DNA from: Thermoplasmata archaeon
GTDB taxonomy: Archaea; Thermoplasmatota; Thermoplasmata; GCA-020350865
Reading direction: 5' to 3'
Assembly: GCA_020351895.1 (NCBI GenBank)
Contig: CP070672.1
Span: 2,066,241-2,087,513 of the forward strand
DNA length: 21,273 nt
Part shown: positions 1 through 21,273 of the stretch, one piece after another
Position numbering within the stretch: position 1 is the first letter of the stretch
Layout: each line of letters starts with the position of its first letter
Made by a program: the position numbers and the translations under genes
The notes under the pieces: model-generated
Database searches by the model: none
The model's input: only the letters and a program-made list of their open reading frames with translations
What the model was told of the DNA's origin: nothing

Positions 1-1
1 C

Positions 2-1057: not shown

Positions 1058-1066
1058 AAGGCTAGG

Positions 1067-2044
1067 GTGGCAAAGAGAATCTCCTCCCTCGGCGAAGCCG
1101 GAGTGGTGGACCTGATCAGTGGCTTGCTGGCCGGGCCGGTACGGCACCCGCGCCTGCTCAGAGGAATCGGCGACGACTGCGCGCTCATCCGGCCCGGCCG
1201 CGGGCTCCTGTTTACGGATGACGCCTTCATCGAAGGCATCCACTTTCAGCAGCGACGGGTTCCGGCCAAACGGGCGGGGTGGAAAGCCCTCGCGGCCAAC
1301 GTCTCGGACATCGCCGCGGGAGGCGGAACTCCGCTCGCGGCGCTGGTGTCGCTGGAACTGCCTCCTTCCCTGCCCGTGCCCTGGCTTAAGGCGTTTTACG
1401 CCGGCGTCCTGCGCTGTGCGCGCCGCTTCTCCCTGGCGGTCGCCGGCGGCAATATCGCCCGCGGCACGAAGTTCGCGGCCCACATAGCGCTGACCGGCGA
1501 CGCTCCGGCAAGGTACGCCGGCCGGGGAGGGGCGAGGGTGGGGGACCTGGTGGCGGTGACGGGAAGCTTGGGCGCTTCCCGCGCCGGGCTCATGTGCCTT
1601 GAACGGGGGCTGCGGTCTCCGGAGGCGAGGGGAGCCGTGAAACGCCATCTCATCCCCGAGCCGCGCGTCGCGGCGGGCCGTGCCCTGGCCCGCGTGGCCG
1701 GCGCCATGATAGACGTGAGCGACGGCCTGATCCGGGAAGCCGGCCTGATCGCCCGCGCTTCGAAGGTCAATCTCGCCCTGGTGCCCGGTGCCGTGCCGGT
1801 GCATGAGGCCGCGGTGAGACTCGCCCGAAAACTCAACGCCGTTCCCGCGGCGCTGGCGCTGGCCAGCGGGGAAGAGTACGAACTGCTCGCGTGCGTGCCG
1901 CGGCGCCGGTTTTCGCGGGCGGCCCGAGCCCTGGCGCGTCTCAACCTGCCCTTCACCGCGATAGGGGAGGTCAGGCGCGGCAGGGGAGTGACGCTGGTGG
2001 GCGGCGCTCCCGGCAAGATTTCCGGCTTCGACCACTTCCGGTAG
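1067..2044 (+). CDS. thiL: Thiamine-monophosphate kinase ThiL
   Basis: Phosphorylates thiamine monophosphate to thiamine diphosphate with ATP, the last step of cofactor synthesis. The protein has 325 residues, the normal length, and the AIRS/PurM-like two-domain order is intact. Motifs seen are GIGDDCALI near residue 32, the TDDAFIEGIHF metal/nucleotide segment, GWKALAANVSDIAAGGG, GDLVAVTGSLGASRAGL, the PEPRVAAGRAL linker, MIDVSDGL and the SGEEYELL motif near 266. The usual GGDT motif reads GGNIARG here, a mild divergence. The start is GTG at 1067, with GAAAGG about five bases upstream. It begins 9 bases after dnaJ and ends 8 bases before a membrane-protein gene, so the three read as one operon. 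No thiamine-synthesis neighbours are visible. Confidence 0.93.
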   Translation: MAKRISSLGEAGVVDLISGLLAGPVRHPRLLRGIGDDCALIRPGRGLLFTDDAFIEGIHFQQRRVPAKRAGWKALAANVSDIAAGGGTPLAALVSLELPPSLPVPWLKAFYAGVLRCARRFSLAVAGGNIARGTKFAAHIALTGDAPARYAGRGGARVGDLVAVTGSLGASRAGLMCLERGLRSPEARGAVKRHLIPEPRVAAGRALARVAGAMIDVSDGLIREAGLIARASKVNLALVPGAVPVHEAAVRLARKLNAVPAALALASGEEYELLACVPRRRFSRAARALARLNLPFTAIGEVRRGRGVTLVGGAPGKISGFDHFR

Positions 2045-2052
2045 CCGAGATC

Positions 2053-2487
2053 GTGATTCGACTCGGAAAACTGGCGCCTGCCGGGATCGTGGCCGGCAAC
2101 CTGGCCCTGTTCCTCGCCAGCTCGTCCTGGTTTCTGGCCGGGAACCCGCCGCTGACGCATCACTGGCTCCTGCCGTTTCACGAGGCGCTCCTGCTGGGCC
2201 AGGCCAGGCTCCTGCGCAAAGTCTGGGCCGGCACGGGGCTGACAATCACTTCCTTAATCATACTTTTCGTCGGGCTAATTCGGATCGAGAGCATCTACAC
2301 AGCGCATCACCTGATCCATTTCTCGATCACGCTCGCTCTGGCGGCCTTTCTGCACGAAATCCTCCGCCGGCGGCTCACCGGCGCCTGGAAGCGCCTTAAC
2401 GGCGTGCTCGCCTCGGCTTGCTTCCTCCTGGCAGCGGTCTCGACCATGGCCGTCGTGCGCCGCGAGATCTGGTGGGACCTGGGCTGA
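2053..2487 (+). CDS. Small four-helix membrane protein, function unknown
   Basis: Not recognised. Reading from GTG at 2053 gives 144 residues. There are four hydrophobic segments: about residues 10-30, 58-76, 84-103 and 117-136. Short basic loops (RRRLTGAWKR) probably face the cytoplasm. A charged end, RREIWWDLG, closes the protein. The same frame is open back into thiL, but the upstream residues are Arg/Gly/Pro-rich out-of-frame shadow. The GTG directly after the thiL stop is the first start that gives a clean membrane protein. The SD signal is weak, which fits translational coupling to thiL. No enzymatic motif is visible. Start position is moderately certain, function unassigned. Confidence 0.6.
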   Translation: MIRLGKLAPAGIVAGNLALFLASSSWFLAGNPPLTHHWLLPFHEALLLGQARLLRKVWAGTGLTITSLIILFVGLIRIESIYTAHHLIHFSITLALAAFLHEILRRRLTGAWKRLNGVLASACFLLAAVSTMAVVRREIWWDLG

Positions 2488-2554
2488 CCGTCCGCACCGC
2501 TCCCTTCGCCGCGGCAAATTCCCCCTCCTGCTCGGGAGATACGAGTAGGGACGC

Positions 2555-3631
2555 TTGAGTAACGAAGCCGACGATTCAGCGAAGAAATCTCTCGCGGCAC
2601 AGCGCTGGGATCAGGTCATCCCACGGCTGGTGGAATACGCACGGGCGCGGATCAGGATCCGGATCTGGGCCGGACGAAAGGACGGCCCCCTGCCGGGCGG
2701 GAAGGAGGCGGAGGACATGGTTTACGAAGCGATCGAGAAAACTCTGGACGGCCGGCGGGCCTGGGATGCCCGGGCTCACCCGGACCTGGAAGCGTATCTG
2801 CGGGACGTGATCGAGAGCGATTTGAACCACCTCGCGGTCGGCTTCGAGAACCGACGTTTTCTGCCCGCGTCCCAGGTCGGTTTCACCATGATCGACGACG
2901 AACCGGTCCCCCTGGTCGAACGCGTGCCCAGTCCGGTTCCGGGCCCGCAGGCCGACCTGGAACTCGACGACGAACGACGGGAAGCCCTGGCCTTTCGCGA
3001 CGCCTTCATTCAATCACTGGGCGACGAGCCGGAACTGGCGGTCGTCGTCCGGCACATCATCGAAGGAGTCGAGCGGCCGGCGGAACTGGCGGAGAAAGCC
3101 GGAGTGCCCGCGAAGGACATCTACAACATGCGCAAGCGGCTTCAGAGACGTCTGCTGGAATTCTACGGAAAGTGGTCACAGACCCTTGAGGAAATGGGTA
3201 TCAATCCCCACTACATCGATATGGTGCGGGAAAATGTCTATAGAATGGCTAAAGAATTGGATTTAATGCTTAAACCACCTCCCAAGGTATCCAATTCCAA
3301 GATGGCACTTTTACTCTGCGAGTATGTCAAGGACCTTGAAAAATTTAACGAGTACCATACCGAGGTTTTTAAGGCGTACTGGCAAGACGGCAAGGACATC
3401 GGAAATCTCGATGTTTTATTGAATATAATCGAAAAACTCGGCCTCGATCCCGAAGAAGCAAGAGCTTTTCTTGATAATGAAAGAACCTCAGAGAAAATGG
3501 CTGAGTTCCTATTAGAGGCAAGGGCCTTTGGAGTCGATGGGGTTCCCACTTTCATTATTGGCAGCATCATAATCGAGGGGGCCCAGCCCTATGAAGTCAT
3601 AAAAAAAGCTGTGGAGCAGGTAAGGTGCTGA
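2555..3631 (+). CDS. Composite ORF: sigma-70-like N-terminal half fused to DsbA/FrnE-like C-terminal half (probable chimera)
   Basis: A single open frame of 358 codons starts at TTG 2555 behind GTAGGGA. Residues 1 to about 203 resemble bacterial sigma-70-family/ECF-like regulators. A helical region-2-like segment (PGGKEAEDMVYEAIEKTL) is followed by LRDVIESDLNHL and an acidic linker. Then comes a region-4-like helix-turn-helix (ELAEKAGVPAKDIYNMRKR, then LQRRLLEF). From about residue 204 the codons turn AT-rich and the protein becomes the C-terminal part of a DsbA/FrnE-like oxidoreductase. That part has the NSKMALLLCEYVKDLEKF helix, FKAYWQDGKDIGN, the cis-Pro loop GVPTFIIG and GAQPYEVI. The N-terminal thioredoxin strand with CxxC is absent. 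The sigma-like half has no stop of its own, and the oxidoreductase has no start. Two truncated genes spliced at a composition break suggest an assembly or cloning artefact. A true fusion would be expected to keep the catalytic CxxC. Confidence 0.7.
   Translation: MSNEADDSAKKSLAAQRWDQVIPRLVEYARARIRIRIWAGRKDGPLPGGKEAEDMVYEAIEKTLDGRRAWDARAHPDLEAYLRDVIESDLNHLAVGFENRRFLPASQVGFTMIDDEPVPLVERVPSPVPGPQADLELDDERREALAFRDAFIQSLGDEPELAVVVRHIIEGVERPAELAEKAGVPAKDIYNMRKRLQRRLLEFYGKWSQTLEEMGINPHYIDMVRENVYRMAKELDLMLKPPPKVSNSKMALLLCEYVKDLEKFNEYHTEVFKAYWQDGKDIGNLDVLLNIIEKLGLDPEEARAFLDNERTSEKMAEFLLEARAFGVDGVPTFIIGSIIIEGAQPYEVIKKAVEQVRC
3150..3190. other. Abrupt composition break / probable contig chimera junction
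   Basis: To the left, third codon positions are almost all G or C (for example AAC-ATG-CGC-AAG-CGG). To the right, A/T-ending codons take over within a few dozen bases (AAT-GTC-TAT-AGA, GAT-TTA). Homology type changes at the same place, from bacterial sigma-like to archaeal FrnE-like. An EcoRI hexamer (GAATTC, 3158-3163) lies at the transition. That would fit a ligation scar, but it may be chance because other copies occur in the window (for example near 972 and 4532). Confidence 0.7.
3164..3631 (+). other. 5'-truncated DsbA/FrnE-family oxidoreductase segment
   Basis: This is the archaeal-side remnant inside the composite frame. About 155 residues match the helical insertion and C-terminal half of the FrnE/2-hydroxychromene-2-carboxylate isomerase-like branch of DsbA proteins. 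Visible landmarks are the PPKVSNSKMALLLCEY helix, the EVFKAYWQDGKDIGN segment, the cis-proline loop VPTFIIG and the closing GAQPYEVIKKAVEQ. Family members are about 200-220 residues, so roughly 60 residues carrying the first beta-strand and the active-site CxxC or SxxC lie beyond the break. In its real genome this gene should be a complete thiol-disulfide or glutathione-S-transferase-kappa-like protein. The left limit given here is a best guess within about 20 bases. Confidence 0.75.
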
Positions 3632-3653
3632 GTTATATTATATTTTGTTGAAG

Positions 3654-3701
3654 CGTGCAATATAAATATAGCTAAGCATCAAATGAGATTAGTTTTGCAC
3701 G
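3654..3701. repeat. 7-bp inverted repeat between convergent genes
   Basis: CGTGCAA (3654-3660) and TTGCACG (3695-3701) are perfect inverse copies 34 bases apart. They lie in the 88-base gap between the FrnE-like gene (+) and the tail-bearing membrane protein (-). The flanks are T-rich (TTATATTATATTTTG at 3634-3648), so this may be a convergent termination region. A 7-bp match could also arise by chance. Confidence 0.25.
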
Positions 3702-3719
3702 ACTATTACCATTTTTCAT

Positions 3720-4052
3720 TTATCGTGGTTGAATAGGCTGTTGATATGGTGGTTGAGGGTATTGTGGTTGTTGGGGAGGTTGTTGGTATTGTTGCTGTTG
3801 ATACGGCGGCTGAGGATATTGTGGTTGCTGTGTAGGTTGTGGATGTTGTAATGTCCTATCTGATAAGAATAGTCCAACACAAAAGGCGATTATGCCACCA
3901 GCTGTAACATATACCCCGACATCTTCCAATCTCAATCCGGCATGCATACCCTTTACATCATCGCTTTCTGTTGCCAGATTAACACCTATACCCAATAAAA
4001 CTACTCCAATTACGATCAGTACTATACCACATATAACAATGTTTTGTCTCAT
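3720..4052 (-). CDS. Small two-helix membrane protein with Gln/Pro/Tyr-rich tail
   Basis: Not recognised as a named family. The protein has 110 residues. A first transmembrane helix spans about residues 5-27 (VICGIVLIVIGVVLLGIG). A short polar loop (ATESDDVKGMHAGLRLED) follows, then a second helix at about 46-64 (VYVTAGGIIAFCVGLFL). The remaining 43 residues are low-complexity, almost only Q, P and Y. They contain two exact copies of QPQYPQPPYQQ, encoded by DNA with four silent differences. The two-helix hairpin should place the tail in the cytoplasm if the N-terminus is inside. The ATG at 4052 follows GGGGAT about five bases upstream. The TTTAAAATAAATAAA stretch at about 4068-4082 (minus strand) is a candidate TATA element. 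Its role may be membrane scaffolding through the sticky tail, but that is a guess. Confidence 0.75.
   Translation of the reverse strand: MRQNIVICGIVLIVIGVVLLGIGVNLATESDDVKGMHAGLRLEDVGVYVTAGGIIAFCVGLFLSDRTLQHPQPTQQPQYPQPPYQQQQYQQPPQQPQYPQPPYQQPIQPR
3741..3827. repeat. Degenerate 30-bp direct repeat coding the Q/P/Y tail
   Basis: Bases 3741-3770 and 3798-3827 match at 26 of 30 positions at an offset of 57 bases (19 codons). All four differences are silent, so both copies encode the same 11-residue motif. This suggests an in-frame duplication that is old enough to have drifted but is held at the protein level. Confidence 0.7.
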
Positions 4053-4093
4053 CTTATCCCCGCGCTTTTATTTATTTTAAATTATTTAAACAA

Positions 4094-4196
4094 ACAGAAG
4101 TAAACATATAATAATGTTTTGTAATAATTATGTAATTTGAATACTACGATGGATGTAAGACAATAAAATGTAATATTCATGTCCTCTTACTTCTGT
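4094..4196. repeat. 10-bp perfect inverted repeat in a 188-base gap
   Basis: ACAGAAGTAA (4094-4103) and TTACTTCTGT (4187-4196) are perfect inverse copies 83 bases apart. The gap 4053-4240 separates the upstream amidotransferase gene from the membrane-protein gene, both on the minus strand. The repeat may be a regulator-binding pair for the membrane-protein promoter or the base of a long RNA stem. The rest of the gap is AT-rich, with no ORF or recognisable RNA. Confidence 0.35.
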
Positions 4197-4240
4197 GTCC
4201 AAGAAGAAATACACATCCTTCACCAGGCACTTATTTCCCA

Positions 4241-4906
4241 TCACAATCTATAAAAATTCTGAAAAAGCCGCTCTGATATCCCAGATTCTTTGGCCTCAAG
4301 AATAGCCTGGTCCAATTCTTTTTCCATATGCGGTACAATTTTCTTAAGATCCATGATGAATTTCTTCCCAGACTCCACTTCTATTTCGGGATGAAACTGT
4401 ATCCCCCATATTGGTGCATCCCTAATTTGAAAGATTTGTACATCACACTGCCCAGAGTATGCAAAAACCTCGAAATCGAAAGTGAGGTTGCAAACCTCAT
4501 CAAAATGCGAGTTGAATACCAAAAAATCCTTTTGAATTCCATTGAGAAGTGGATTATCTTTATTTATAGTCACTTGTTTCCAACCTATCTCTGGTTTATG
4601 TGCCCTTTTCACCCCCTCTAATCCCAGGAGGGCCTTGGCAATAAGCTGATGACCTAAACAGATTCCCAGGGTTGGTATATTCTTATCGATAATCTGGCGT
4701 ACCAGACTCATCTCTTTCTCAATCCATTTTCTGTCATTTAATATGGAATCCTCAGAACCGGAAAGAATAATGTGATCATAATCCTCGATATTCTCGGGAA
4801 ATTCGGATTTCGAGGCTCTGAACACATCCAGATCCTTTTGGAAGTAATTAGAGAAATATCCTGAATATTTATTATCCAGAAAATTGTCAAGAACCAGGAT
4901 TGTCAT
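4241..4906 (-). CDS. Stand-alone class I glutamine amidotransferase
   Basis: Class I (triad) glutamine amidotransferase of the GMP-synthase/GATase1 type, 221 residues, cytosolic. It hydrolyses glutamine and passes ammonia to a partner, or may act as a gamma-glutamyl peptidase. The nucleophile is Cys83 in GICLGHQ. The His172/Glu174 pair sits in QFHPE, so the triad is complete. FNSHFDEV (131-138) resembles the GuaA-type SHxDEV loop. It differs from archaeal GuaA small subunits in length and in a helical C-terminal extension of about 35 residues (MEKELDQAILEAKESG). No synthetase partner lies next to it. The ATG at 4906 has no convincing SD. An AT-rich box (ATTTTAATAATATTAATAAAG on the minus strand, about 4918-4938) stands just upstream, which fits a short or leaderless transcript. 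The fold and catalytic class are sure, the substrate is not. Confidence 0.88.
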   Translation of the reverse strand: MTILVLDNFLDNKYSGYFSNYFQKDLDVFRASKSEFPENIEDYDHIILSGSEDSILNDRKWIEKEMSLVRQIIDKNIPTLGICLGHQLIAKALLGLEGVKRAHKPEIGWKQVTINKDNPLLNGIQKDFLVFNSHFDEVCNLTFDFEVFAYSGQCDVQIFQIRDAPIWGIQFHPEIEVESGKKFIMDLKKIVPHMEKELDQAILEAKESGISERLFQNFYRL

Positions 4907-4942
4907 GAAACCCAGACTTTATTAATATTATTAAAATATTTC

Positions 4943-4997
4943 TTAGGTATTGGTTCAAAAAGGGACCTTTGTTAATCATCACGTTCCTGATACCTAA
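4943..4997. promoter_or_regulatory. Divergent promoter region with inverted repeats
   Basis: The 168-base gap 4907-5074 lies between the amidotransferase (-) and the lipoprotein (+). TTAGGTAT (4943-4950) and ATACCTAA (4990-4997) form a perfect 8-bp inverted repeat. Between them is a compact palindrome, AAAGG-GA-CCTTT (4959-4970). ATTTATTAG at 5028-5036 is a plausible TATA box for the plus-strand gene. A binding role for the repeats is inference. Confidence 0.35.
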
Positions 4998-5074
4998 ATG
5001 AATTATGTGATTTGAGAAGGGGGAAACATTTATTAGATAAAAATTGTGTATTAGGCAATAACAAAATCTAAAAT

Positions 5075-5535: not shown

Positions 5536-5955
5536 ATGAAATTGGGCGTAGCAAGTGAAGAAGATGTGGATAGATGGCTGAGAGGGATTGGACTTAAATC
5601 TCTGGAGAAAACCGACACTGGCAACTGGTACTTTTTGCAGAAGTACAAGGATTCGGAAATACAAATAAACATAACATATGATGAAAACGAATCCCCCATC
5701 CCGCCAATGGTTGGAGTCGGATGCTTTTTCTTAGAGCAGCCGAAAAAGAATCAGTGCGAGTTGTATAAAAAACTCCTGGAATTTCAGGCAGGGAGCGTGG
5801 ATACGAAATTCGTAATGATAAGCAGCGGCGCCATCATTCTTGTAACTCAAAGAAGTGCAGTGGATTTGGATCCCTCGGAATTACAGGATATGATAGATAT
5901 GATTCTTATCATGTACAATCAATATCATGAAGATTGTCTATCAATTATTTCCTAA
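5536..5955 (+). CDS. YbjN-like / type III chaperone-fold protein
   Basis: 139 residues, soluble. The order matches the YbjN/CesT-like alpha-beta fold: an N-terminal helix (EEDVDRWLRGIGL), a beta-meander (NWYFLQKYKDSEIQINITYD), then VGVGCFFL. Next comes a helix (CELYKKLLEFQA), two strands (TKFVMISSGAIILVTQRSAV) and a closing helix starting at LDPSELQDMIDMILIMYNQY. YbjN-fold proteins act as small adaptors or chaperones; no enzymatic residues are visible. The ATG at 5536 is the only start after an in-frame stop at 5506. It is directly preceded by GGGGGC, too close for a good SD, so the transcript may use another signal. It sits 132 bases ahead of the Ras-like GTPase on the same strand. A regulator or partner of that GTPase is conceivable but unproven. 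Fold assignment is moderate and by eye. Confidence 0.65.
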   Translation: MKLGVASEEDVDRWLRGIGLKSLEKTDTGNWYFLQKYKDSEIQINITYDENESPIPPMVGVGCFFLEQPKKNQCELYKKLLEFQAGSVDTKFVMISSGAIILVTQRSAVDLDPSELQDMIDMILIMYNQYHEDCLSIIS

Positions 5956-6087: not shown

Positions 6088-6651
6088 ATGGATGAAGAAG
6101 TGATTCTACCCGGGGGAAAGCCTGTTAAACTGAAAATCTGCATGGTGGGGGAGCTTGCCGTCGGAAAGACATGTTTAGTAAAAAAATACGTGTACGACAA
6201 GTTTGACAATAGATATCTCACAACAATAGGGACCAAAATCCTAAAGAGAGAAATCAAGGTTAAACACCCCAAAGAAAAGGGATTGGTGGATGTCCACCTG
6301 TTGATATGGGACATCATGGGCACAAAAGGTTTTCGCCAGCTTTTGCAGCAGGCATACTTCAACGGGCTTCAGGGAATAATCGGAGTGTGTGACAATACAA
6401 GGGAAGATACACTATCTGACCTTCATGACTGGGTGGATCTGGGGCAGATGGTTGAAAATGAGGTTCCTGCCGTGTTTCTCGGGAATAAATGCGATTTGAA
6501 AGATGAGCAGGAGATCGGATTAAGTGAGCTGAGAAGCTTTGCCTCGGAATATGAAAAAACCATACCCTATCTCTCCAGTGCAAAAACAGGTAAGAATGTA
6601 GAAAAGGCTTTCAAGAAGCTGTGCGAAAAGATACTTGAGGATATGTTTTAA
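6088..6651 (+). CDS. Ras/Rab-like small GTPase
   Basis: A 187-residue Ras-superfamily switch GTPase, cytosolic. All five G motifs are visible. G1 is GELAVGKT (21-28) and G2 is the Thr at 45/46 in YLTTIG. G3 is WDIMG (74-78), G4 is NKCD (133-136) and G5 is SAK (164-166). The layout (LKICMVGE start, WD motif, NKCDL) is closest to Rab/Ran-type or archaeal Ras-like proteins rather than MglA or FeoB. Unusual points: switch II reads D-I-M-G-T where Ras/Rab have D-T-A-G-Q, so the catalytic glutamine is replaced by Thr79. There is also no C-terminal cysteine motif for prenylation. A slow intrinsic GTPase dependent on a partner is inferred. A YbjN-like gene lies upstream and a convergent dehydratase downstream (67-base gap). 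The longin/roadblock-like tail of the giant surface protein in this window is a candidate partner class. Confidence 0.9.
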   Translation: MDEEVILPGGKPVKLKICMVGELAVGKTCLVKKYVYDKFDNRYLTTIGTKILKREIKVKHPKEKGLVDVHLLIWDIMGTKGFRQLLQQAYFNGLQGIIGVCDNTREDTLSDLHDWVDLGQMVENEVPAVFLGNKCDLKDEQEIGLSELRSFASEYEKTIPYLSSAKTGKNVEKAFKKLCEKILEDMF

Positions 6652-11974: not shown

Positions 11975-12979
11975 CTACCCTTCAACTTTGAGGCTTCTGT
12001 TCTCCTTTGCACTTTTGAAAGCGATTTCGATCATCTCGACAGCCCTTTTACCTGCATACATGTCTGAAAGGGGTCTTTCTCTAGATTTTATGCATTCCAC
12101 AAAGTGCCTCATCTCCTCCTTTAAGGGCTCTTTATAGGGGATGGGTACAGTATACGAGCCTTCATATTCAGCCCTATATGCTCCCTTTCCACCTGGGATT
12201 ATCGAAGCATCGAAAAGCTGCAGCTCCTGGGGCTTCAAATAATCAACCTTGGCGCTCATCTTGCTACCGATAATGGTGAGATCACGTCTCTTTCCATCCA
12301 CAGGGGTCATCCAGCTCTCGAATGCATAACCAAGGGTGTCATCCTCGAATCTCATGATGAGAAGGGCCACCTCCTCGATATCCTTCTGTAGAAAGCGACT
12401 GGTCTGAGCCGTGATTTCCAAGGGATACTCAGTATTCAAAAGATAACAGAATATATCCACCTCATGTATGGCCAAGGCGAACATAACACCCATATCACTT
12501 CTTGGCTCCCTAAATGAGAATCGCGTGCTCGTCAGATAGTAAATCCTTCCAAAGTCCCCTCTTTCGATCCTCTTTTTGATCTCCTTAACCGCACTGTGAT
12601 GCCTGAAGATATGACCCACCATGAGGAGTTTGTCGCTCTTTTCGGCGATTTTGATGAGCTCTTCTGCCTCCTTTGAATCTGTTGTCATGGGTTTTTCAAC
12701 AAAAACATCCTTTTTTGCCTCCATGAACTTCTTTGCCAGTTCAAAGTGTGTTTTGGTGGGAGTTGCAATGCTCACTCCATCCAAGGTATCATCATTCAAA
12801 AGCTCGTTGTAATCTGTCACATATGGTATATGGTATATCTTGGAGAATTCCTTGGCTTTGGCCTCATCCACCTCACAGATTGCAAGCTCGTCTATCACAC
12901 CTTCGCCCTTCAGTTCATTGAATGCCCTCACATGGTTCTTGCCCCAATATCCGGTGCCAATGACAGCTATTTTAACCAT
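11975..12979 (-). CDS. Gfo/Idh/MocA-family nucleotide-sugar dehydrogenase (WbpB/GnnA-like)
   Basis: 334 residues, NAD(P)-dependent. The Rossmann motif is GTGYWGKNH (8-16). The second-strand acidic turn AICEVDEAKA is followed by ATPTKTH (72-78), EKP (95-97, catalytic lysine Lys96), GHIFRHH and AIHEVD (171-175). The family oxidises sugar hydroxyls. With the adjacent DegT aminotransferase it fits the pair that converts UDP-GlcNAc, or its uronate, to the 3-keto then 3-amino sugar (WbpB/WbpE in Pseudomonas, GnnA/GnnB in Acidithiobacillus). Substrate assignment is by context. GGAGG lies six bases upstream of the ATG. Last gene of a four-gene minus-strand operon, 12 bases after the aminotransferase. 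Confidence 0.88.
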   Translation of the reverse strand: MVKIAVIGTGYWGKNHVRAFNELKGEGVIDELAICEVDEAKAKEFSKIYHIPYVTDYNELLNDDTLDGVSIATPTKTHFELAKKFMEAKKDVFVEKPMTTDSKEAEELIKIAEKSDKLLMVGHIFRHHSAVKEIKKRIERGDFGRIYYLTSTRFSFREPRSDMGVMFALAIHEVDIFCYLLNTEYPLEITAQTSRFLQKDIEEVALLIMRFEDDTLGYAFESWMTPVDGKRRDLTIIGSKMSAKVDYLKPQELQLFDASIIPGGKGAYRAEYEGSYTVPIPYKEPLKEEMRHFVECIKSRERPLSDMYAGKRAVEMIEIAFKSAKENRSLKVEG

Positions 12980-12991
12980 ATTATTCCTCCA

Positions 12992-14083
12992 TTAACCAGT
13001 AAAAAAGGCCTTGACCTCCCGAGCAACACGCTCAATCTCCTCAAATTTGATTCTAGGATCCAAAGGTAAGGACAGAACCTCCTCTGCGCATGCTTCCGTA
13101 TTCTCAAGAGTCACAGATGGGAAATTGTCGAGAATGTAGGGTTGTTTGTGCACAGGGATGTTGTAATGTATGCCGGTTGCTATGCCTTTGGATTTCAGAA
13201 ATCTTGCAAGCTCGTCCCTTCTTTTTGTTTTTATTACATAAAGATGATAGGCATGCTTTGCCCACCCCATCTCAGTTGGTATTACTATTTCACTCAGGCC
13301 GTCAAGAAGTTCTGAATAATGTGCTGCATTCTTTCTTCTAGCCTCGATCCACTCCGGAAGATGCTTCAATTGAACCCTTCCAATGGCTGCATGAATCTCA
13401 CTCAATCTGAAATTGAATCCGAACATCGTACTTTTGTACTTATCGGTCCTGCCATGGTCCTTCATCAGGGCCATTGTAGAAGCCAGTTCTTCGTCATTGG
13501 TCGTGATCATGCCACCTTCACCGGCAACTGTCATGTTCTTGGAAGGAAAGTAGCTGAAGCAGGTGATATCCCCTATTGTACCCACCATGTGCCCAAAGGC
13601 CATGGCACCATGGGCCTGACAGGCGTCCTCTATCACCTTTAAATCATGTTCTCTTGCCAAGTCCATTATGGGCTTCATCTCGGCAGGATGCCCGTATAGA
13701 TGCACTGGGACAATTGCCCTGGTTTTCGGGGTAATCAGTCTCTCTATTTCCTCGAGTTTAATGGTGAAGGAAATCGGGTCTATATCAGCAAAAATTGGTG
13801 TTGCACCCAAAAGGATCACAGGACTTGCCGTAGCTATGAATGTGAAGGAAGGAATTATGACCTCATCACCACCCTTGATATCTAGGGCTTTTAGTGCCAA
13901 GAACAATGCCGCCGTACCGGAATTTACACTGACACCGTATTTTGCAGTGCAAAATTTGGCAAATTCCTCCTCCAGTATCCTTGCGTTTAGGCCTTTAACA
14001 TACCAGCCACTTTCTATGACATCCAATACGGCTTTTTTTATCTCCTCGTCCACAAACATAGTGCATAGGGGAATCTCATCCAT
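12992..14083 (-). CDS. DegT/DnrJ/EryC1 PLP-dependent sugar aminotransferase (WbpE/GnnB-like)
   Basis: About 363 residues, fold type I. It transfers an amino group, usually from glutamate, to a 3- or 4-keto nucleotide sugar. Numbered from the TTG at 14089, the PLP residues are Asp155 in EDACQAHGA, the substrate-shielding loop NSGTAAL (56-62), and Lys184 in SYFPSKNMTVAGEGG. The FNFRLSEIHAAIG signature and the HLYVIKTKRRDEL region are also present. Start: ATG 14083 lies 11 bases after GGGAG. A TTG at 14089 lies five bases after the same SD and would add two residues. Both overlap or abut the stop of the acyltransferase (14086), so translation is coupled. Together with the dehydrogenase and acyltransferase it forms the oxidise-aminate-acylate triad known from WbpB/E/D. 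Confidence 0.9.
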   Translation of the reverse strand: MDEIPLCTMFVDEEIKKAVLDVIESGWYVKGLNARILEEEFAKFCTAKYGVSVNSGTAALFLALKALDIKGGDEVIIPSFTFIATASPVILLGATPIFADIDPISFTIKLEEIERLITPKTRAIVPVHLYGHPAEMKPIMDLAREHDLKVIEDACQAHGAMAFGHMVGTIGDITCFSYFPSKNMTVAGEGGMITTNDEELASTMALMKDHGRTDKYKSTMFGFNFRLSEIHAAIGRVQLKHLPEWIEARRKNAAHYSELLDGLSEIVIPTEMGWAKHAYHLYVIKTKRRDELARFLKSKGIATGIHYNIPVHKQPYILDNFPSVTLENTEACAEEVLSLPLDPRIKFEEIERVAREVKAFFTG

Positions 14084-14085
14084 AA

Positions 14086-14736
14086 TCAATCACTCTCCCA
14101 TTCGTATGGTACACCATAATATCCCAATTCACAAGTTAGATCTGAAACATTTTTGATGACCCTTGCAGGGTTTCCCACTGCAACTGAATCATCTGGGATG
14201 CTCTGAACGACAACAGAGCCGCATCCCACAAGGCTGTTTTTTCCTATTATCACCTTTGGCCCAAGTGTCACATTGCTCCCTATCTTGGCGTTCTCCTTTA
14301 TAACAACACCTTTTGCACACTCATTGAACTTAGGGCATGGAGGGTGGCGCATATTCAAGATTGTCACACTGGGTGCCAGCCATACCTTATCCTTTATATT
14401 TACAAATTCAGGAACAAAACAATTGGAATGGATCCTCACCTTATTTCCTATGACATTCTCCCTCTCCACAACAGAGTGGGAGCCAATACTCACATCATCT
14501 CCTATTAGATTGTTCTCACGAATAAGCACTCCATGGCCGGTTTGAAAGTTATTTCCAATCTTGTTTCCTCGGTATATCACGCTGTGTGAACGGATTTTAG
14601 CATTATCTCCAATTATCAATTTACCTTCATGCGGTGGATTTATGGGAGGCTTTGAGGATTTCACGCCGAGGATCACGAAATCCTCCAAATTCGAATTATC
14701 GCCAAGTTCCACATCATCCATGATTTTTTGGGTCAT
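14086..14736 (-). CDS. Left-handed beta-helix N-acyltransferase (WbpD-like)
   Basis: 216 residues from ATG 14736, with hexapeptide repeats throughout (IGDNAK, IGNNFQ, IGDDVS, IGSHSV, IGNKVR, IGSNVT, LGPKVI, VGCGSV), i.e. a trimeric LbH fold. A loop with RHPPCPKFNECAKG interrupts the coils near residue 125. Such a loop is seen in acetyltransferases that act on amino sugars and often carries the catalytic His. The end, VAVGNPARVIK, is typical of acetyl-CoA-dependent sugar N-acetyltransferases. In this operon it should acylate the amino group placed by the DegT enzyme. The longer frame from TTG 14760 has a weaker start context. GGAG lies ten bases before ATG 14736. The acyl donor (acetyl or other) cannot be read from sequence. 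Confidence 0.85.
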   Translation of the reverse strand: MTQKIMDDVELGDNSNLEDFVILGVKSSKPPINPPHEGKLIIGDNAKIRSHSVIYRGNKIGNNFQTGHGVLIRENNLIGDDVSIGSHSVVERENVIGNKVRIHSNCFVPEFVNIKDKVWLAPSVTILNMRHPPCPKFNECAKGVVIKENAKIGSNVTLGPKVIIGKNSLVGCGSVVVQSIPDDSVAVGNPARVIKNVSDLTCELGYYGVPYEWESD

Positions 14737-14827
14737 ATCCGATTTTCTCCAGCATATCAACCTTTAACAGAAAGGTTGGGAGACTGGTAGGTCTATCTAT
14801 AATTTAAAAGTTACGATATAAAAGATT

Positions 14828-16447
14828 TCATTTCTCCAATAGAAAATCCCCGATTATAAGCACATCCATCCCGCTTCCGTAATATGTTGCCAGGGCCTGA
14901 TAAGGTGTGTTCACAATGGGATCGCCCTTTACGTTGAAACTCGTGTTCAATGTGATTCCATGACCAGTTTCATTCTTCAACTCTTGCAGGAATTTGTGGT
15001 ACTTTTCATTTTGCTCTTTGGAAACTGTTTGTATCCGGGAGGTATTATCAACATGGGTGACTGAGGGTATGATATCCCGACCCCCTTCCTTTACATCGAA
15101 TGTGATGGTCATATAAGGGGCAATTTTTGATTTCCCAACAAAATAGAGTGGGACATCCTCCTCTAATACTGAAGGGGCAAACGGTCTGAACTGCTCCCTG
15201 AATTTTATTTTGCTGTTCACGATATCCTTCATGTCGGGATTTGTGGGATTTGCTAATATGCTTCGATTGCCAAGGGCCCTTGGTCCAAACTCCATTCGAT
15301 CCTGATACCATCCAACTATCTTGTTCTCGGAAACCTTCTGGGCTGCATAGGATGCCTTGTCGCTCAATTCGGAATACTGCACTCCAGCCATGTCCAAAGC
15401 ATCCCTGATCTCGTCATTGGAATATTCAGGTCCCAAGAAGACATCTGGAAGTGCATGGATCCTATGACCTTCCCGCCTGGCTATCAGGTAACATGCTCCG
15501 AGGGATAGCCCTGCATCGCTTGCCGCCGGTTGAATGTAGAGATTATCAATAAAATCGAGATTCATGAGCCTTTGATTGACCACGCAATTGAGGGCAACAC
15601 CGCCTGCAAGACACAGTTTGGAAAGTCCCGTTTTCTTGTGAAAATTTTCCACCATATCAACGAATATCTTCTCCAAATGCTCCTGCCCACAGGCGGCTAT
15701 ATCCTCATAGTAGGAAGTGACCTCGCCATCAGGCAGCCTTGGGGGCCCCAACTTCTCTATCAGTTTTTCGTTGTAAAAAGGCTCCTGCTTGCTGGGATTC
15801 GGTTTGCCTGGCTGGGGTATCTTGATGTAATCGGTGTTCATGTTGTATCTTCCGTCCGAATAGCTTACCAGCCAGCTAAAATCATATTTTCCCCTTCTCC
15901 CATAGGATGAAAGACCCATTACCTTGTACTCATCATTATCCCTCTGAAAACCCACATACTGTGTTAGCACTGAGTAGAAAATTCCAAGGCTGTTTGGTTT
16001 CGGAATCCTTTCTTTAACCTCTATGTCCTTGCCGTCTCCAACACAAAATTCTGTACAAACACTGTCGCCTGACAAATCCGCGCTTATGATCATGGCGGAA
16101 TCGAATCCTGAAGCGTAATATGCACTTGCACAGTGGGCATCATGATGGTTAACGAGCTCGATCTCAGGGATGCATCCGAACTTGCTCTTTATATAATCCC
16201 CTAGAATCTTTTTGAAGTTCTGATAGGTCTCCCCGGGAAAAACCAAAATATCCACATCCTCCATTGTGATTTTTCCGCGACTTAAAACAAAGCGCATGGC
16301 CTTTTCCGGAAGGCGGCCGGGAGCGTGTTTGATTCTAAGAAATCTCTCCTCCTCAGCTGAAGCTATGACATCTCCGTCTTTAAGCAACGTGGCTGATCCA
16401 TCCTGATTGCCCCCTCTGACTCCACCAGAGATTCCTAAAATGTACAT
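14828..16447 (-). CDS. Carbamoyltransferase, NodU/CmcH/TobZ family
   Basis: 539 residues, full length for the family. The N-terminal Kae1-like ASKHA domain starts with LGISGGVRGGNQDGSAT (4-20) and AEEERFLRIKHA. NHHDAH (100-105) supplies the metal-binding histidines. LAGGVALNC (280-288) and QPAASDAGLSLGA follow. The C-terminal YrdC-like part has EFGPRALGNRSILA (386-399), KFREQFRPFAPSV (415-427), HVDNTSRIQTV and NTSFN. These enzymes make carbamoyl-adenylate from carbamoyl phosphate and ATP and place the carbamoyl on a hydroxyl of a sugar or antibiotic. Here the acceptor is probably a sugar of the glycan made by the next three genes. Start: GGAGGG lies seven bases before ATG 16447; the TTG at 16462 overlaps the SD. 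A 91-base gap separates it from the acyltransferase frame. The candidate promoter is CAAAATTTAA at 16481-16490 (minus strand). Confidence 0.92.
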   Translation of the reverse strand: MYILGISGGVRGGNQDGSATLLKDGDVIASAEEERFLRIKHAPGRLPEKAMRFVLSRGKITMEDVDILVFPGETYQNFKKILGDYIKSKFGCIPEIELVNHHDAHCASAYYASGFDSAMIISADLSGDSVCTEFCVGDGKDIEVKERIPKPNSLGIFYSVLTQYVGFQRDNDEYKVMGLSSYGRRGKYDFSWLVSYSDGRYNMNTDYIKIPQPGKPNPSKQEPFYNEKLIEKLGPPRLPDGEVTSYYEDIAACGQEHLEKIFVDMVENFHKKTGLSKLCLAGGVALNCVVNQRLMNLDFIDNLYIQPAASDAGLSLGACYLIARREGHRIHALPDVFLGPEYSNDEIRDALDMAGVQYSELSDKASYAAQKVSENKIVGWYQDRMEFGPRALGNRSILANPTNPDMKDIVNSKIKFREQFRPFAPSVLEEDVPLYFVGKSKIAPYMTITFDVKEGGRDIIPSVTHVDNTSRIQTVSKEQNEKYHKFLQELKNETGHGITLNTSFNVKGDPIVNTPYQALATYYGSGMDVLIIGDFLLEK

Positions 16448-16703
16448 TTTTATTCCCTCCAAAGTCTGTTTTCGGATACCTTAAATTTTGGATTGTATTC
16501 AGATTTTGCTCTTTGTCTCGAATACTCAGCACGAGATATAACCATGGGCATCGTATGTGCATTCACCCACGGAACATGTGAATCTTCGCATATTATTCTG
16601 GACTAAATAAGCTTTTCTGAAATTAAATTCTGATAATCATTTCAAAGTAAGAATTTAAATGTTTTTCAAATAAAGTAAATAAATATGTTATTCTTAATCA
16701 GCT
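16448..16703. promoter_or_regulatory. 256-base intergenic region with sugar-operon promoter
   Basis: This lies after the stop of the giant surface gene and before the carbamoyltransferase start, both on the minus strand. CAAAATTTAA at 16481-16490 (minus strand) is 34-43 bases before ATG 16447 and is the best box A candidate. T-rich stretches near 16640-16690 may end the upstream transcript. A 60-codon minus-strand frame (16380-16562) runs out of frame into the carbamoyltransferase and has no homology I recognise. No RNA gene seen. Confidence 0.4.
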
Positions 16704-19700
16704 TCATGTGTTTTTCTTTTCATTGGATTTATTCTGTAGCTTCCTGTACTCCATTATGAATCTGCCTTCCAAAAGCGAGTTCAGCATTGCCTTTATATCT
16801 GGGAAGGCATCTATGGTTCCTGTCCAGTTCTCAAGCTCTCCTTTATATCTTTCTTCAATATCCTCAACAAAATCCTTCATCTTCCTGTAATACGGCTTGG
16901 GGAGGCGGCCCTGCATAAAGGCGGCAAGTATAACGAAATTTCCTCTGTAAATGTACACCATCTTATCTCCATAATCCATGCGTTTTAGGTGCTCTCCCTC
17001 CTCTCCACCAAAGGAATCTCTGATGAACTCCTGAACCGCAACGAACATACCTGCAAGGATGTCTTCATCCTTCTCACCTCCTTTTTCGTAGCTCATTTTA
17101 ACTCCTGCGTGTTCTATAAGCAGTCCCGATTTTGTTATTAGGAAAATATCCTCGATGGCATAGACACCTTTCCAGGCCAAAAGAAACGATATGAGGATCG
17201 CTATCAGGACGAATGGTAGGATGTACACCATCCAGGTCTCACCCTTTAAAACGGATGAAGGGGGCAATATCTGTATCTCAACAGGAAGTGTCGTTTCGTT
17301 CTCCCCATCGCTTACAGTTATCCAAATCACATCTTCAGAGATATTACCAGGGTACCTGAATATTACAAAATGACCCACTATATCGACATATGTACTGTTT
17401 ACACTCACAGATAAATTGACGAGTTCACTATCTATGTCTGAAATGTATTCAGTCAGATCCAGAATCCAATCTTGATCCTTTTCCCCAACCTGTATCGGGA
17501 TGCCTGCAATAAGTGGCGGATCGTTTACAGAGAGGACAGTTACGATCAAGGTATCCTCGTAATAAGCTTCCTTGTCGTCTGTGGCTCTGATGGTTATGGA
17601 TTCACTACCGAACCAATTTGGTGGTGGTATGAAATCGATGGTATTATCATCATGAATGATTACTTTGATGGAATCATTGCCATAGGTGTAGTAGATGGGG
17701 TCACCATCGAAGTCAATGAAGTGCTCATCAAGATCATAAGCACCGATAATTTCTTGATCCTCGAATATCAGAATGTCGGGAAGCGTGATCAGAATCTCGG
17801 GAGGATAATTTTCATCCACTGTAACTGTTGTGGCTTGAAACGTTGTGTTGAGGCCATCAGAGACGTAAACTGTTAATGAGACGGTGTACGGATACCTTTG
17901 TCCTTCCCAATATTCAGGATAAAGCAAAAACAGGTGGGTACCTTCAACGGTTACGTTGTCAGGATTAGATGTGAAAATAACGAGATCTTCAATATCGTTG
18001 TCCTTATCTGAAATGTACCATCCCAAATCGAATTTATAGGTGTAATTGTAGCGAATTTTCAAAGGATCCAGGGGCTTGATTTGTGGGGGATCGTTTACAG
18101 GTATCACTGTGATATTGATGGTCTGCTCCGCAATACCACCAATCGGATCTTCGGCCCTGAAGGTGACCCTCTCTGTACCACTCCATTCCCCTGACGCCGA
18201 TAGGTCGACGGTATGGTTGGAATTTATTGTGATGTCCACCTGGGAATACCCATGGCTCATTTCGAGCCTGTCACCATCCGAATCAATGAAATGGAGGTCC
18301 AAATCGAAAACCGCAAGTTTTGTTTGATTCTCGTAAAGTGTCACATCAGGAATCCTGGCAATCAAAACTGGAGGATGGTTTGATGTTATCTTCACCCTTA
18401 TTAACTCGCTATCGTTCCCCTCACCATCGGACACTGTCAAGGTTACATAATCCTCACTGCCCAACATGCTCTCAGGATAGTTGTAAGTCACCTTAAATCC
18501 ATTAATTGTGGTATATGATGGCTCATCTGAGGCGAGGGTGAGCTCAGAGGGTAGATTGTCGATATCATGTATATAATAGCCATAGTCAAACGTATACGGT
18601 GTATCGAAGTGTACATTGATATCTGGGCAGTTTGCGATTTTGGGATCATCATTTACTGGGGTCACATTTATCCATGCTTTCTGAAAATCTAGGTTTCCAT
18701 GGGGATCTTCAAGCCAATATGTGACCTCCATATTGCCATATTTATCGTCTTTGGATATCAAGGAGATGACTTGATTCCCCGTGCTATTTTCGGAATAGGC
18801 AATAAGAATGGAGTCATCAAAATCTGTTAGGTACCATTTTAGCTCGGATACCAGGTCCTGAGGATCACTTGCATAATTTGAAAGATCGATAGAATGAAGA
18901 ATAAAATCCTCTTCGATCTCGATATCGGGTATTGTTCCTACGATCACTGGCTCCTGTGAGATTTCAATGTCAAATGTCGAAGAACTCTGTATATTTTGTC
19001 CGATATCATATATTGCTAAGATTGTGACCCTTCCCAGACCCACAGCCGTGAGTATGGTCCTGGACCCCCTAGATGGGTTTACGATTCCCCTGCTTGCGTT
19101 ATTGCTGATCCAGTCTACTTCCACCTCCCCTATATAACCTTCTGAATGATTATATGCGGAGGCGTAAAAGGTATCTGTACTTCCCAAATAAGAAGTTTCC
19201 AAAACCAGAACTTTCCCATTATTGTCGGGTTCGCTGCGAATCTGTATATAATCCACTGTGGGAGGCGGTGTTGTTATTTCGAACTGATTGAGTGATGATG
19301 AGTTAAAGTTATCGTTGGTGTCATTGACCCAAATCGTGAAATTGTAGATTCCTGCCTCATTGTAGGTATCTGTGTGGAACCATTCATTGCCACTGCCCAT
19401 TTCCATATTTACGTTTACCTGGCTGTCATCTGGATAGGTAATTATTATCCAGACCTCTTGAATACCAAAATTATCTTCTATTTCAACTGTGACGTTAACT
19501 TGGCCGCCAATGTTCTGTGATAGTGGATCAGCAGAGGCATTGGTAATAATGGGTAGATCGTCATCCTGAACAAGAATATTTTTTTCTCCTGATTTGTTCA
19601 AGTTGAAAGATGTGTCACTGGCATAAATTTCGTAGTTTAGAAGGGTTGCATTGGAGGTGATGTTAATAGGAAGCTCGTATTTTCCATTACCTACGGAGTT

Positions 19701-21273
19701 CATTGTTATATTGTAGGGGCCCTCCATTCCTCCTTTATCGAGATCGAGCCAGTAAATGAGGCGAACCTCATCTATTTCGATGTTATCAGTAACATCGGCA
19801 ATGATGGTGAAAGCATCACCTGTTGTCGGGGAACCAACGACATCGTCCACTATTTCGGGTAGATCATTATCCTCTACGTCTTTCGTGAATTCAATTGTCT
19901 CATTCCAATTAAAACTCGTGTCATTAGCAGAGATAACATAGTATAATTTTGTGGCATTGTCTGGAACATTAATATTTTTAAAATATTCAGGATCCATGGT
20001 CACATTGTCGGGCCCGTCAATTCCTCCATCGGCAAGGTCGTACCAATATAAAAGATGAACCTCTTTCACAGCGAAGTTATCTGTAGCAATTGCATCTATC
20101 CGGATGGATTCACCAGTCGTGGGAGGGCCAATTGGTGGAGCCAATATCTTCGGCGGTTCTGCCTCCACCCTTGCACTTGCATTGATTGCATCTTTTTGGG
20201 CTGTATTGTTTTGGGATATCACACTCACCAAAACCCAACCTTCCTCTCCACCAATTGCGAAATCAGGTGAAGAAATATTTAACGTATAATTTTTCATTTC
20301 AAAGGGATCGAGAAGGATCATGTTACCATGGCTAATTTTAGACCATGTTTCGTTGTCCCTCAGTTCCCACGACCAAGCTCCAGCAATATTCGATGTGATC
20401 CTAAATTCGAATGTATCCATCATATTACCATCGTTTTGCAGGGCAATCCACCACGTGGCATTCATTCCACTTGAGATGTAGGTAATATTCTTCTGTATGC
20501 CACTGGGAATGATCTCATACACATCATCGACATTGCCGTTTATCCACAAATCTGGCTGATGATGCAGATGAACAACATATACCTTTCCAGAATCGGATTT
20601 GGCAACATCATCAAAATAAGGAGAGCCTATGATTGTCTCAATATAGCCTGATGTATCATTGTCCACATTATTCGCGCATGAGACGGAAAAACCGAAGTAA
20701 TCGAAATCGTTCTCTCCCATCATCATGTAATCAGCATCAGATGCCAGGATATTGGGATTCATTGAAACGTTGCCATAAAAATAATAGATATTTCCTTTTA
20801 ACTGAGCATATGGCGCCCCAACAATCACATCATCATAGCTGTCAACACTGAATCTCCCGGCACATGAGACTGAATAGCCGAACAGGTCACTTACGGATTC
20901 TCCTGCCAAGGTAACAGTGGCAGAATCTCCCTGGGTAAGATCGATTTCGCCATCATCTGCGCTCTCGGAAGTGATGTATTCGCCGTTGAAGATATAGGCT
21001 GACCCTTGTCCACTGTTATTTTGCGGTGCACCTATGATGACATCGTCAAAGCCATTTAGATCCAAATCTCCAGCAGAGGAAACAGACCATCCGAAATCCT
21101 CCCCAGGAGTGCCTTTGATTATTAGATCAGGAAGATTCAGTTCGATTATCACAAGAAAAAGGGTAGGAAGACTCATGATATCAGTTGTTTCGAGCCAAGC
21201 CTGGTATTGGATAAAAACATTCTCAGGGCTCGTTATTCTTCCACTATTGTTGTACCACTCTGACCATTGGCTC
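16704..21273 (-). CDS. Giant surface protein (receptor/adhesin-like), N-terminus beyond window
   Basis: 1522 residues are visible and the frame is open to the right edge, so the start and any signal peptide lie outside. The Met at 21176 is internal; residues below count from it. Before it is a beta-rich stretch ending ENVFIQYQAWLETTDI. Then come three FG-GAP repeats (about 24-66, 96-137, 156-205), the first with a DLDLNGFDD calcium-type loop. Next are a beta-sandwich (208-338), three Ig-like repeats (341-636), a Big-2-like domain (638-742) and six cadherin-like domains (743-1305) marked by VNDxP junctions. One transmembrane helix (1316-1336) is followed by a cytoplasmic tail of about 150 residues. 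The tail begins IEDIFLITKSGLLIEHAG and looks longin/roadblock-like. The ectodomain has about 40 N-x-S/T sequons by hand count. The topology is an outside-facing type I protein, suggesting adhesion or sensing with signal relay to the cytosol. Confidence 0.88.
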   Translation of the reverse strand, partial: SQWSEWYNNSGRITSPENVFIQYQAWLETTDIMSLPTLFLVIIELNLPDLIIKGTPGEDFGWSVSSAGDLDLNGFDDVIIGAPQNNSGQGSAYIFNGEYITSESADDGEIDLTQGDSATVTLAGESVSDLFGYSVSCAGRFSVDSYDDVIVGAPYAQLKGNIYYFYGNVSMNPNILASDADYMMMGENDFDYFGFSVSCANNVDNDTSGYIETIIGSPYFDDVAKSDSGKVYVVHLHHQPDLWINGNVDDVYEIIPSGIQKNITYISSGMNATWWIALQNDGNMMDTFEFRITSNIAGAWSWELRDNETWSKISHGNMILLDPFEMKNYTLNISSPDFAIGGEEGWVLVSVISQNNTAQKDAINASARVEAEPPKILAPPIGPPTTGESIRIDAIATDNFAVKEVHLLYWYDLADGGIDGPDNVTMDPEYFKNINVPDNATKLYYVISANDTSFNWNETIEFTKDVEDNDLPEIVDDVVGSPTTGDAFTIIADVTDNIEIDEVRLIYWLDLDKGGMEGPYNITMNSVGNGKYELPINITSNATLLNYEIYASDTSFNLNKSGEKNILVQDDDLPIITNASADPLSQNIGGQVNVTVEIEDNFGIQEVWIIITYPDDSQVNVNMEMGSGNEWFHTDTYNEAGIYNFTIWVNDTNDNFNSSSLNQFEITTPPPTVDYIQIRSEPDNNGKVLVLETSYLGSTDTFYASAYNHSEGYIGEVEVDWISNNASRGIVNPSRGSRTILTAVGLGRVTILAIYDIGQNIQSSSTFDIEISQEPVIVGTIPDIEIEEDFILHSIDLSNYASDPQDLVSELKWYLTDFDDSILIAYSENSTGNQVISLISKDDKYGNMEVTYWLEDPHGNLDFQKAWINVTPVNDDPKIANCPDINVHFDTPYTFDYGYYIHDIDNLPSELTLASDEPSYTTINGFKVTYNYPESMLGSEDYVTLTVSDGEGNDSELIRVKITSNHPPVLIARIPDVTLYENQTKLAVFDLDLHFIDSDGDRLEMSHGYSQVDITINSNHTVDLSASGEWSGTERVTFRAEDPIGGIAEQTINITVIPVNDPPQIKPLDPLKIRYNYTYKFDLGWYISDKDNDIEDLVIFTSNPDNVTVEGTHLFLLYPEYWEGQRYPYTVSLTVYVSDGLNTTFQATTVTVDENYPPEILITLPDILIFEDQEIIGAYDLDEHFIDFDGDPIYYTYGNDSIKVIIHDDNTIDFIPPPNWFGSESITIRATDDKEAYYEDTLIVTVLSVNDPPLIAGIPIQVGEKDQDWILDLTEYISDIDSELVNLSVSVNSTYVDIVGHFVIFRYPGNISEDVIWITVSDGENETTLPVEIQILPPSSVLKGETWMVYILPFVLIAILISFLLAWKGVYAIEDIFLITKSGLLIEHAGVKMSYEKGGEKDEDILAGMFVAVQEFIRDSFGGEEGEHLKRMDYGDKMVYIYRGNFVILAAFMQGRLPKPYYRKMKDFVEDIEERYKGELENWTGTIDAFPDIKAMLNSLLEGRFIMEYRKLQNKSNEKKNT
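16707..17159 (-). other. Cytoplasmic longin/roadblock-like domain of the giant protein
   Basis: These 151 residues follow the transmembrane helix. The order is two strands (IEDIFLITKSGLLIEHAG), a helix (DEDILAGMFVAVQEFIRDSF), then three strands (HLKRMDYGDKMVYIYRG and NFVILAAFMQ). A long helix (YYRKMKDFVEDIEERYKGEL), ENWTG, and a final helix follow. This beta-beta-alpha-beta-beta-beta-alpha order is that of longin/roadblock folds, which bind or regulate small GTPases. The assignment is by secondary-structure pattern, not by a search. Confidence 0.55.
17245..18948 (-). repeat. Three tandem two-domain cadherin-like super-repeats
   Basis: The six domains alternate between two subtypes. Odd domains begin with an IPDxxxxE motif (IPDIEIEED, IPDVTLYEN, LPDILIFED), and domains 3 and 5 also share an HFIDxDGD motif. 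Even domains carry a YxFDxGxYIxDxD-type motif (YTFDYGYYIHDID, YKFDLGWYISDKD, WILDLTEYISDID). Units are about 185-190 residues, so the array grew by duplicating a pair. Confidence 0.65.

Follow-up and report, generated by a model that had tools for sequence, protein, structure and literature searches.

Coupling of small GTPases to surface receptors is usually regarded as a eukaryotic trait, and the protein parts that might serve such a link are known from several well-described systems. The longin domains of Sec22b, Ykt6 and VAMP7 are N-terminal in SNARE proteins, MglB is a roadblock protein that has no ectodomain, the actinobacterial conservons (Cvn) include a roadblock member, the cytoplasmic tail of integrin alpha is short and classical cadherins carry a catenin-binding cytoplasmic region. 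Here, we analyse a stretch of 21,273 nucleotides from a Thermoplasmata archaeon (assembly GCA_020351895.1, contig CP070672.1, positions 2,066,241-2,087,513, forward strand), the whole of which is called the window below. It contains a very large gene for a surface receptor or adhesin, the predicted longin tail of which is most likely a platform that would dock a Ras-like GTPase at the membrane and change or read its nucleotide state.

Comparison with the closest systems shows both kinship and clear differences. In this family, the longin ends the protein, after a giant ectodomain and a membrane helix, instead of starting it as in the SNAREs, and identity to Sec22b, Ykt6 and VAMP7 longins is 6-11%. 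As in the MglA/MglB systems of bacteria and archaea, the gene coupling of which has been reported (PMC4316618, where longins are not named), a small GTPase gene adjoins a gene of the roadblock/longin superfamily; here, however, the platform would be a longin that is covalently attached to a transmembrane ectodomain. In conservons, too, a GTPase of the Ras superfamily is tied to a membrane sensor (PMC4316618), but this involves separate proteins and a histidine kinase, whereas here ectodomain and longin lie in one polypeptide, with no kinase. Single Rab-like proteins are known in a Thermoplasmatales archaeon and in Aciduliprofundum (PMC4915359), and the archaeal longin literature that we found in open access concerns Asgard lineages. 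In contrast to the longin, roadblock, TRAPPC3 and GTPase proteins of Asgard archaea, the proteins described here lie outside Asgard, and many carry ectodomains. The original prediction for this locus considered a link between surface sensing and GTPases in archaea to be poorly described. In the open-access titles and abstract openings that we covered (most of the subscription literature lies outside this scope), no longin-tailed receptor and no Thermoplasmatota longin is described. Here, a predicted longin family with no Pfam or NCBIfam model is found on surface receptors of Thermoplasmata-type archaea.

Receptor architecture and predicted tail fold

The receptor frame is open through the window edge, and its true N-terminus lies outside. 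Of the genome loci, L001 (from the metagenome-assembled genome 'Thermoplasmata archaeon isolate bin33') encodes the closest relative, a protein of 2,443 residues that aligns with the window receptor from its own residue 774 onward at 48% identity, so the window receptor is probably short of ~770 N-terminal residues; L001 has an N-terminal hydrophobic segment at residues 15-33. FG-GAP, Ig-like and cadherin-like modules joined by a single helix to a tail domain had been predicted, and this layout was confirmed by Pfam (all three module types exceed the Pfam cut-offs, Table 1), hydrophobicity, tail relatives and AlphaFold2 models. The hydrophobic core of the helix (residues 1348-1366) has a mean hydrophobicity of 2.78 and the runner-up (residues 34-52) is much weaker (1.72). 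N-x-S/T sequons are in marked excess before the helix (39, against a shuffled mean of 14.4 and a maximum of 25 in 300 shuffles) and number two in the tail, while lysine plus arginine content rises from 4% before the helix to 15% in the tail, which fits an N-terminal part outside the cell and a cytoplasmic tail. The parallel with integrins and cadherins, which the original prediction had drawn, holds for the kind of ectodomain modules (FG-GAP repeats, as in integrin alpha, and cadherin-like modules outside, followed by one membrane helix) and fails beyond them, since a predicted longin-fold tail of 155 residues with no Pfam family stands here in place of a short integrin-type tail or a catenin-binding region.

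Two AlphaFold2 models of tails from different branches display the longin topology beta1-beta2-alpha1-beta3-beta4-beta5-alpha2-alpha3 (DSSP on models, not on solved structures), and, in structure comparison, most of the length of the predicted domain matches solved longin domains. The leading matches of the window tail model are SNARE longins and AP sigma subunits. The best Foldseek match of the second model (which began at the domain itself, the preceding stretch being outside it) is a chain of a TRAPP-Ypt1 structure; chains of MglB and Ragulator rank shortly below it. Profilin and GAF folds are absent among the structural matches listed for both models. At the sequence level, the window tail has no Pfam match at E <= 10; Intu_longin_1 matches three of 17 tail relatives weakly (best E 0.084) and Robl_LC7 also matches three of 17, below its cut-off (best E 0.012; the window tail gives no match). 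NCBIfam searches of the tail gave chance-looking matches alone, a PDB sequence search with the window tail gave four weak matches, none of them a longin, and PDB sequences compared with a tail profile (A2) gave ten matches with no longin chain, the top two being de novo helical proteins (0.004). Roadblock domains differ from longins by an N-terminal helix ahead of the first strand (PMC10933270); in the window protein, the first strand starts a few residues after the membrane helix and an extra C-terminal helix is present. Plain roadblock/MglB membership was rejected, given the order of elements and the Pfam results. The tail, for which a longin- or roadblock-like fold had been claimed, is thus predicted by structure modelling and fold comparison to be longin-like, that is, a longin domain of an unnamed family with no Pfam or NCBIfam model.

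Tail carriers and their Ras-like neighbours

Judging from its recurrence, this tail is not a chance pattern: it is common to 27 other long proteins (E <= 7.4e-17), was found in 35 proteins in a search of short proteins and is encoded at 74 genome loci (contigs were scanned with two peptide patterns, by which distant relatives in other phyla can be missed). Viral contigs gave three pattern matches, none of them a relative. Other archaeal ectodomains carrying the same tail, which had been anticipated, do exist, and include proteins with Ig-like or PQQ-propeller modules that end in it. The domain is also found (i) in short membrane proteins of 188-211 residues, (ii) in tandem, in two CARDB-containing proteins (L028 and L048) and in L052, (iii) after a HisKA_7TM region (L056), (iv) behind a HerA-type ATPase (L043), (v) behind a region that looks TPR-like by eye (L070) and (vi) inserted in a STAND/TPR ATPase, between its P-loop and a Walker-B-like part (L050). 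A STAND/TPR ATPase with an inserted longin-family domain is a possible GTPase-controlled ATPase or regulator. L053, L059-L062, L064, L067, L071 and L073 resemble L050, the one member to which Pfam was applied, and the genome of L071 belongs to the same phylum as genome G001. Three further proteins (P0058, P0061 and P0063) combine the longin-family domain with PF13453, which we take to be a zinc ribbon, and have no obvious membrane helix.

Co-occurrence of the tail with Ras-like GTPases, another element of the original prediction, was borne out across genomes. In a phylum sample of 243 evenly drawn genomes (at most 14 Ras candidates scored in each), the tail domain is present in 28 and Ras, at E <= 1e-15, in 34, with 26 genomes having both, two the tail only, eight Ras only and 207 neither (Fisher p 1e-25, with kinship not corrected). 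Genomes that entered our set via a tail locus carry Ras in 7/7 and 8/8 cases (the phylum sample includes two of the latter eight), and a single genome can have as many as 35 Ras-family matches.

The association extends to gene neighbourhoods. A Ras gene lies in the flank examined for 35 of the 74 tail loci and is within 150 bp of the tail gene in 21 of the 74, on the same strand in 20 of these 21 (gaps were measured from tblastn hit edge to open reading frame (ORF) edge, with mechanical start codons). Counting all 21 close pairs as independent was rejected, since 14 of them form one ortholog group, ~1,400-residue receptors with Ras just upstream, and are counted as one event because their wider neighbourhood is largely conserved. 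The other same-strand arrangements are receptor-Ras-V4R (L084/L054 and L088/L042), short transmembrane longin-Ras (L079 and L080, where an MBL hydrolase-looking gene follows; L049 and L051 share the first two genes), tandem longin-Ras (L048), a further pair in L055 and a receptor with three or six Ras genes in tandem behind it (L081-L083). In this last arrangement (3529-9292 in L081), where the Ras arrays, three to six genes long, begin directly downstream of the receptor, the receptor also ends in CxxC motifs resembling zinc ribbons. In three single-contig genomes, six of 30 tail units lie less than 1 kb from a Ras match, against 0.57 expected when units are placed at random rather than by gene (of 66 tail rows the five that were weakest or partial were excluded, as were two of the 99 Ras rows, none of them in these three genomes). 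As a control, Big_9 frames of the same genomes were compared: a same-strand Ras gene lies within 3 kb of 5/14 frames with the tail and 0/41 without it, the same-strand criterion having been chosen after the data were seen (one row per open frame, 55 frames, one repeat row skipped; in G001, 150 of 326 candidates were scored). At four of the 41 tail-less frames a Ras gene does lie within 3 kb, in each case on the opposite strand. In the four loci with a tail-less Big_9 protein near Ras (L089-L092), the C-termini have no longin-like tail by eye and at least one gene intervenes.

Some operons have a third member. In both L084 and L088, Ras is followed by a gene for a V4R protein (E 2.5e-14 and 1.3e-14, respectively), a member of the TRAPPC3/Bet3 superfamily, and in the three single-contig genomes five of 16 V4R matches start less than 1 kb from a Ras match and share its strand in every case. 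In genome G005, a roadblock gene precedes one Ras-V4R pair and a longin-tailed receptor precedes another, as though the tail of the receptor had taken the position of the roadblock protein. Of the Ras-V4R pairs recorded (L084 7667-8716, L088 3243-4296 and G005 1777498-1778871), one follows a roadblock gene and two follow a longin-tailed receptor. This recalls the TRAPP core, in which a longin heterodimer and Bet3-type subunits form a guanine nucleotide exchange factor for Rab: longin fold, V4R and Ras-like GTPase are co-encoded in the L084 and L088 operons and the top Foldseek match of the second tail model is a TRAPP chain. Since V4R is the third member of some operons, a TRAPP-like exchange complex is a candidate mechanism. 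The difference is that the longin is here a receptor tail and that V4R is seldom near it (within 2 kb of a tail match for two of 24 V4R matches in five genomes, 16 of these distances having been computed and the rest read from match lists). V4R was not seen in the window, though no search aimed at it was made there. L084 also contains a gene of 113 codons (2284-2625), 13 bp before the receptor, that is homologous to the ~100-residue C-terminal extension of many Ras proteins and has no Pfam match at 0.01.

Proposed function and competing explanations

The original interpretation, a surface receptor leading to a GTPase, is supported by the modules, the predicted fold, the co-occurrence and the gene pairing; what we infer beyond these are a ligand, tail dimerisation, GTPase binding and the direction of control. 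In the proposed switch, the FG-GAP/Ig/cadherin-type ectodomain, probably glycosylated, would bind something outside, and ligand or surface contact would cluster or reorient the receptor, the single predicted helix of which spans the membrane. The longin tails would then form or open a platform, to which the Ras-like GTPase would be recruited and switched; the tail might act as an exchange factor, as a GAP co-factor or as an effector. This proposal builds on the description of longin and roadblock dimers as small-GTPase platforms (PMC10933270), and on the finding that none of 68 distinct Ras frames (a few of them cut) has a cysteine in its last five residues. Lipid anchoring of these Ras proteins by prenylation is therefore unlikely, and the receptor tail could be what brings neighbouring GTPases to the membrane.

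Several findings weigh against this reading. The window GTPase lies 10,052 bp from the receptor gene, on the opposite strand and with many genes between, and for the L001 receptor gene no Ras match is nearer than 97 kb. The flanks of 39 of the 74 tail loci (some of them short) yielded no Ras gene, and among 13 STAND-ATPase-looking loci L050 alone has one. The 14 syntenic pairs out of 21 amount to a single event, two of the 28 genomes with the tail lack a Ras match at the threshold used, the Big_9 contrast on any strand (5/14 versus 4/41, p 0.037) is weakly significant, V4R is scarce near tails and no tail-GTPase fusion was seen among the frames of the loci examined. The leading structural matches of the window tail are not GTPase regulators, and it may be that tail and Ras are each markers of the same clades.

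Some of these points would suit a longin that makes no contact with a GTPase, and instead holds receptors together as a dimer or, like SNARE and adaptor sigma longins, binds a peptide or an adaptor, with GTPase genes being adjacent for some other reason. The structural matches of the window tail and the 39 loci with no Ras found agree with this, as does the presence of the domain in a STAND ATPase, behind a HerA-type ATPase and after a 7TM region, which fits a general interaction module. We nevertheless consider it unlikely, because same-strand Ras adjacency recurs in different contexts, the same-strand control separates frames with the tail from those without it, tail and Ras co-occur at the genome level and the second model is closest to TRAPP-Ypt1, MglB and Ragulator chains. 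A structural surface protein, adhesin or cell-wall component, with a cytoplasmic domain that is a mere anchor or dimerisation knob and does not signal, would account for the large modular ectodomain, the many sequons and the adjoining genes that look like surface-sugar synthesis (window 11975-16462), yet it is improbable given that a 130-residue tail domain is kept across differing ectodomains (including PQQ propellers) and soluble ATPases, which is more than an anchor calls for. Lineage and operon inheritance alone, with tail and Ras being independent features of the same clades, seems to us very improbable: the two do cluster in one and the same minority of genomes and the 14 close pairs form one syntenic group, but there are at least five further kinds of same-strand pair and none of the tail-less Big_9 frames of these genomes is so paired.

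As for the broader form of the receptor-to-GTPase reading – that, across the phylum, non-Asgard archaeal receptors hard-wire outside sensing to Ras-like GTPases via a covalent longin, in some cases with V4R in a TRAPP-like exchange module – we regard its chances as evenly balanced. If true, receptor-controlled small-GTPase signalling and a longin-V4R-GTPase trio would exist in prokaryotes outside the lineage thought to be ancestral to eukaryotes. The gene pairs indicate which GTPase to combine with which tail, making prokaryotic receptor-to-GTPase signalling directly testable, and the family offers a non-Asgard comparison for tracing how longin, roadblock and TRAPP modules arose.

The GTPase and other features of the window

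Table 1. Coordinates of the receptor gene, its parts and the candidate GTPase gene within the window
Feature	Position	Strand	Evidence or remark
Receptor gene	16704..21272	-	Open frame, 1,522 codons in window plus stop; 5' end outside window
FG-GAP repeat, best of two stretches	20988..21095	-	Pfam PF01839, protein E 7.9e-10
Big_9 Ig-like domain, best of three stretches	18108..18380	-	Pfam PF17963, E 8.2e-17
Cadherin_4 (bacterial cadherin-like), best of three stretches	17946..18125	-	Pfam PF17803, E 2.5e-7
Transmembrane helix, residues 1347-1367	17172..17234	-	Strongest hydrophobic segment of receptor; counterpart in many relatives
Predicted cytoplasmic longin-fold tail, residues 1368-1522 (155 residues)	16707..17171	-	
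Ras-like small GTPase, 187 residues, candidate partner	6088..6651	+	Pfam Ras, E 6.4e-32

The window GTPase shares 42-49% identity with a few other Ras proteins and with those whose genes lie just upstream of the ~1,400-residue receptors (13 of the 14, the 14th, L037, being partly masked), and its best matches among the loci examined (51%) are in L090 and L091. These two loci have a common block composed of an epimerase-like gene, a short-tailed Big_9 surface protein, a transglutaminase-like gene and a convergent Ras gene, which is the best match just named. The G3 motif of the window GTPase is WDIMGT, which differs from the glutamine after glycine seen in 46 of 68 relatives, so that its own hydrolysis may be weak. 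A small gene 132 bp upstream (5536-5955) has a below-cut-off match to CesT_Tir_1 (8.3e-4).

The genes that adjoin the receptor at 11975-16462 encode a Gfo/Idh oxidoreductase, a DegT aminotransferase, a hexapeptide transferase and a carbamoyltransferase, perhaps for surface-sugar synthesis. Rfam and tRNA scans of the window found nothing. At its other end, in the region 1-3631, an ORF has no Pfam match at 1e-5 in its first part and a DsbA match in its second part, and within it GC content drops from 0.65-0.70 (positions 1-3000) to 0.45 and then 0.36 (positions 3001-5000), making an assembly chimera or a transferred segment possible.
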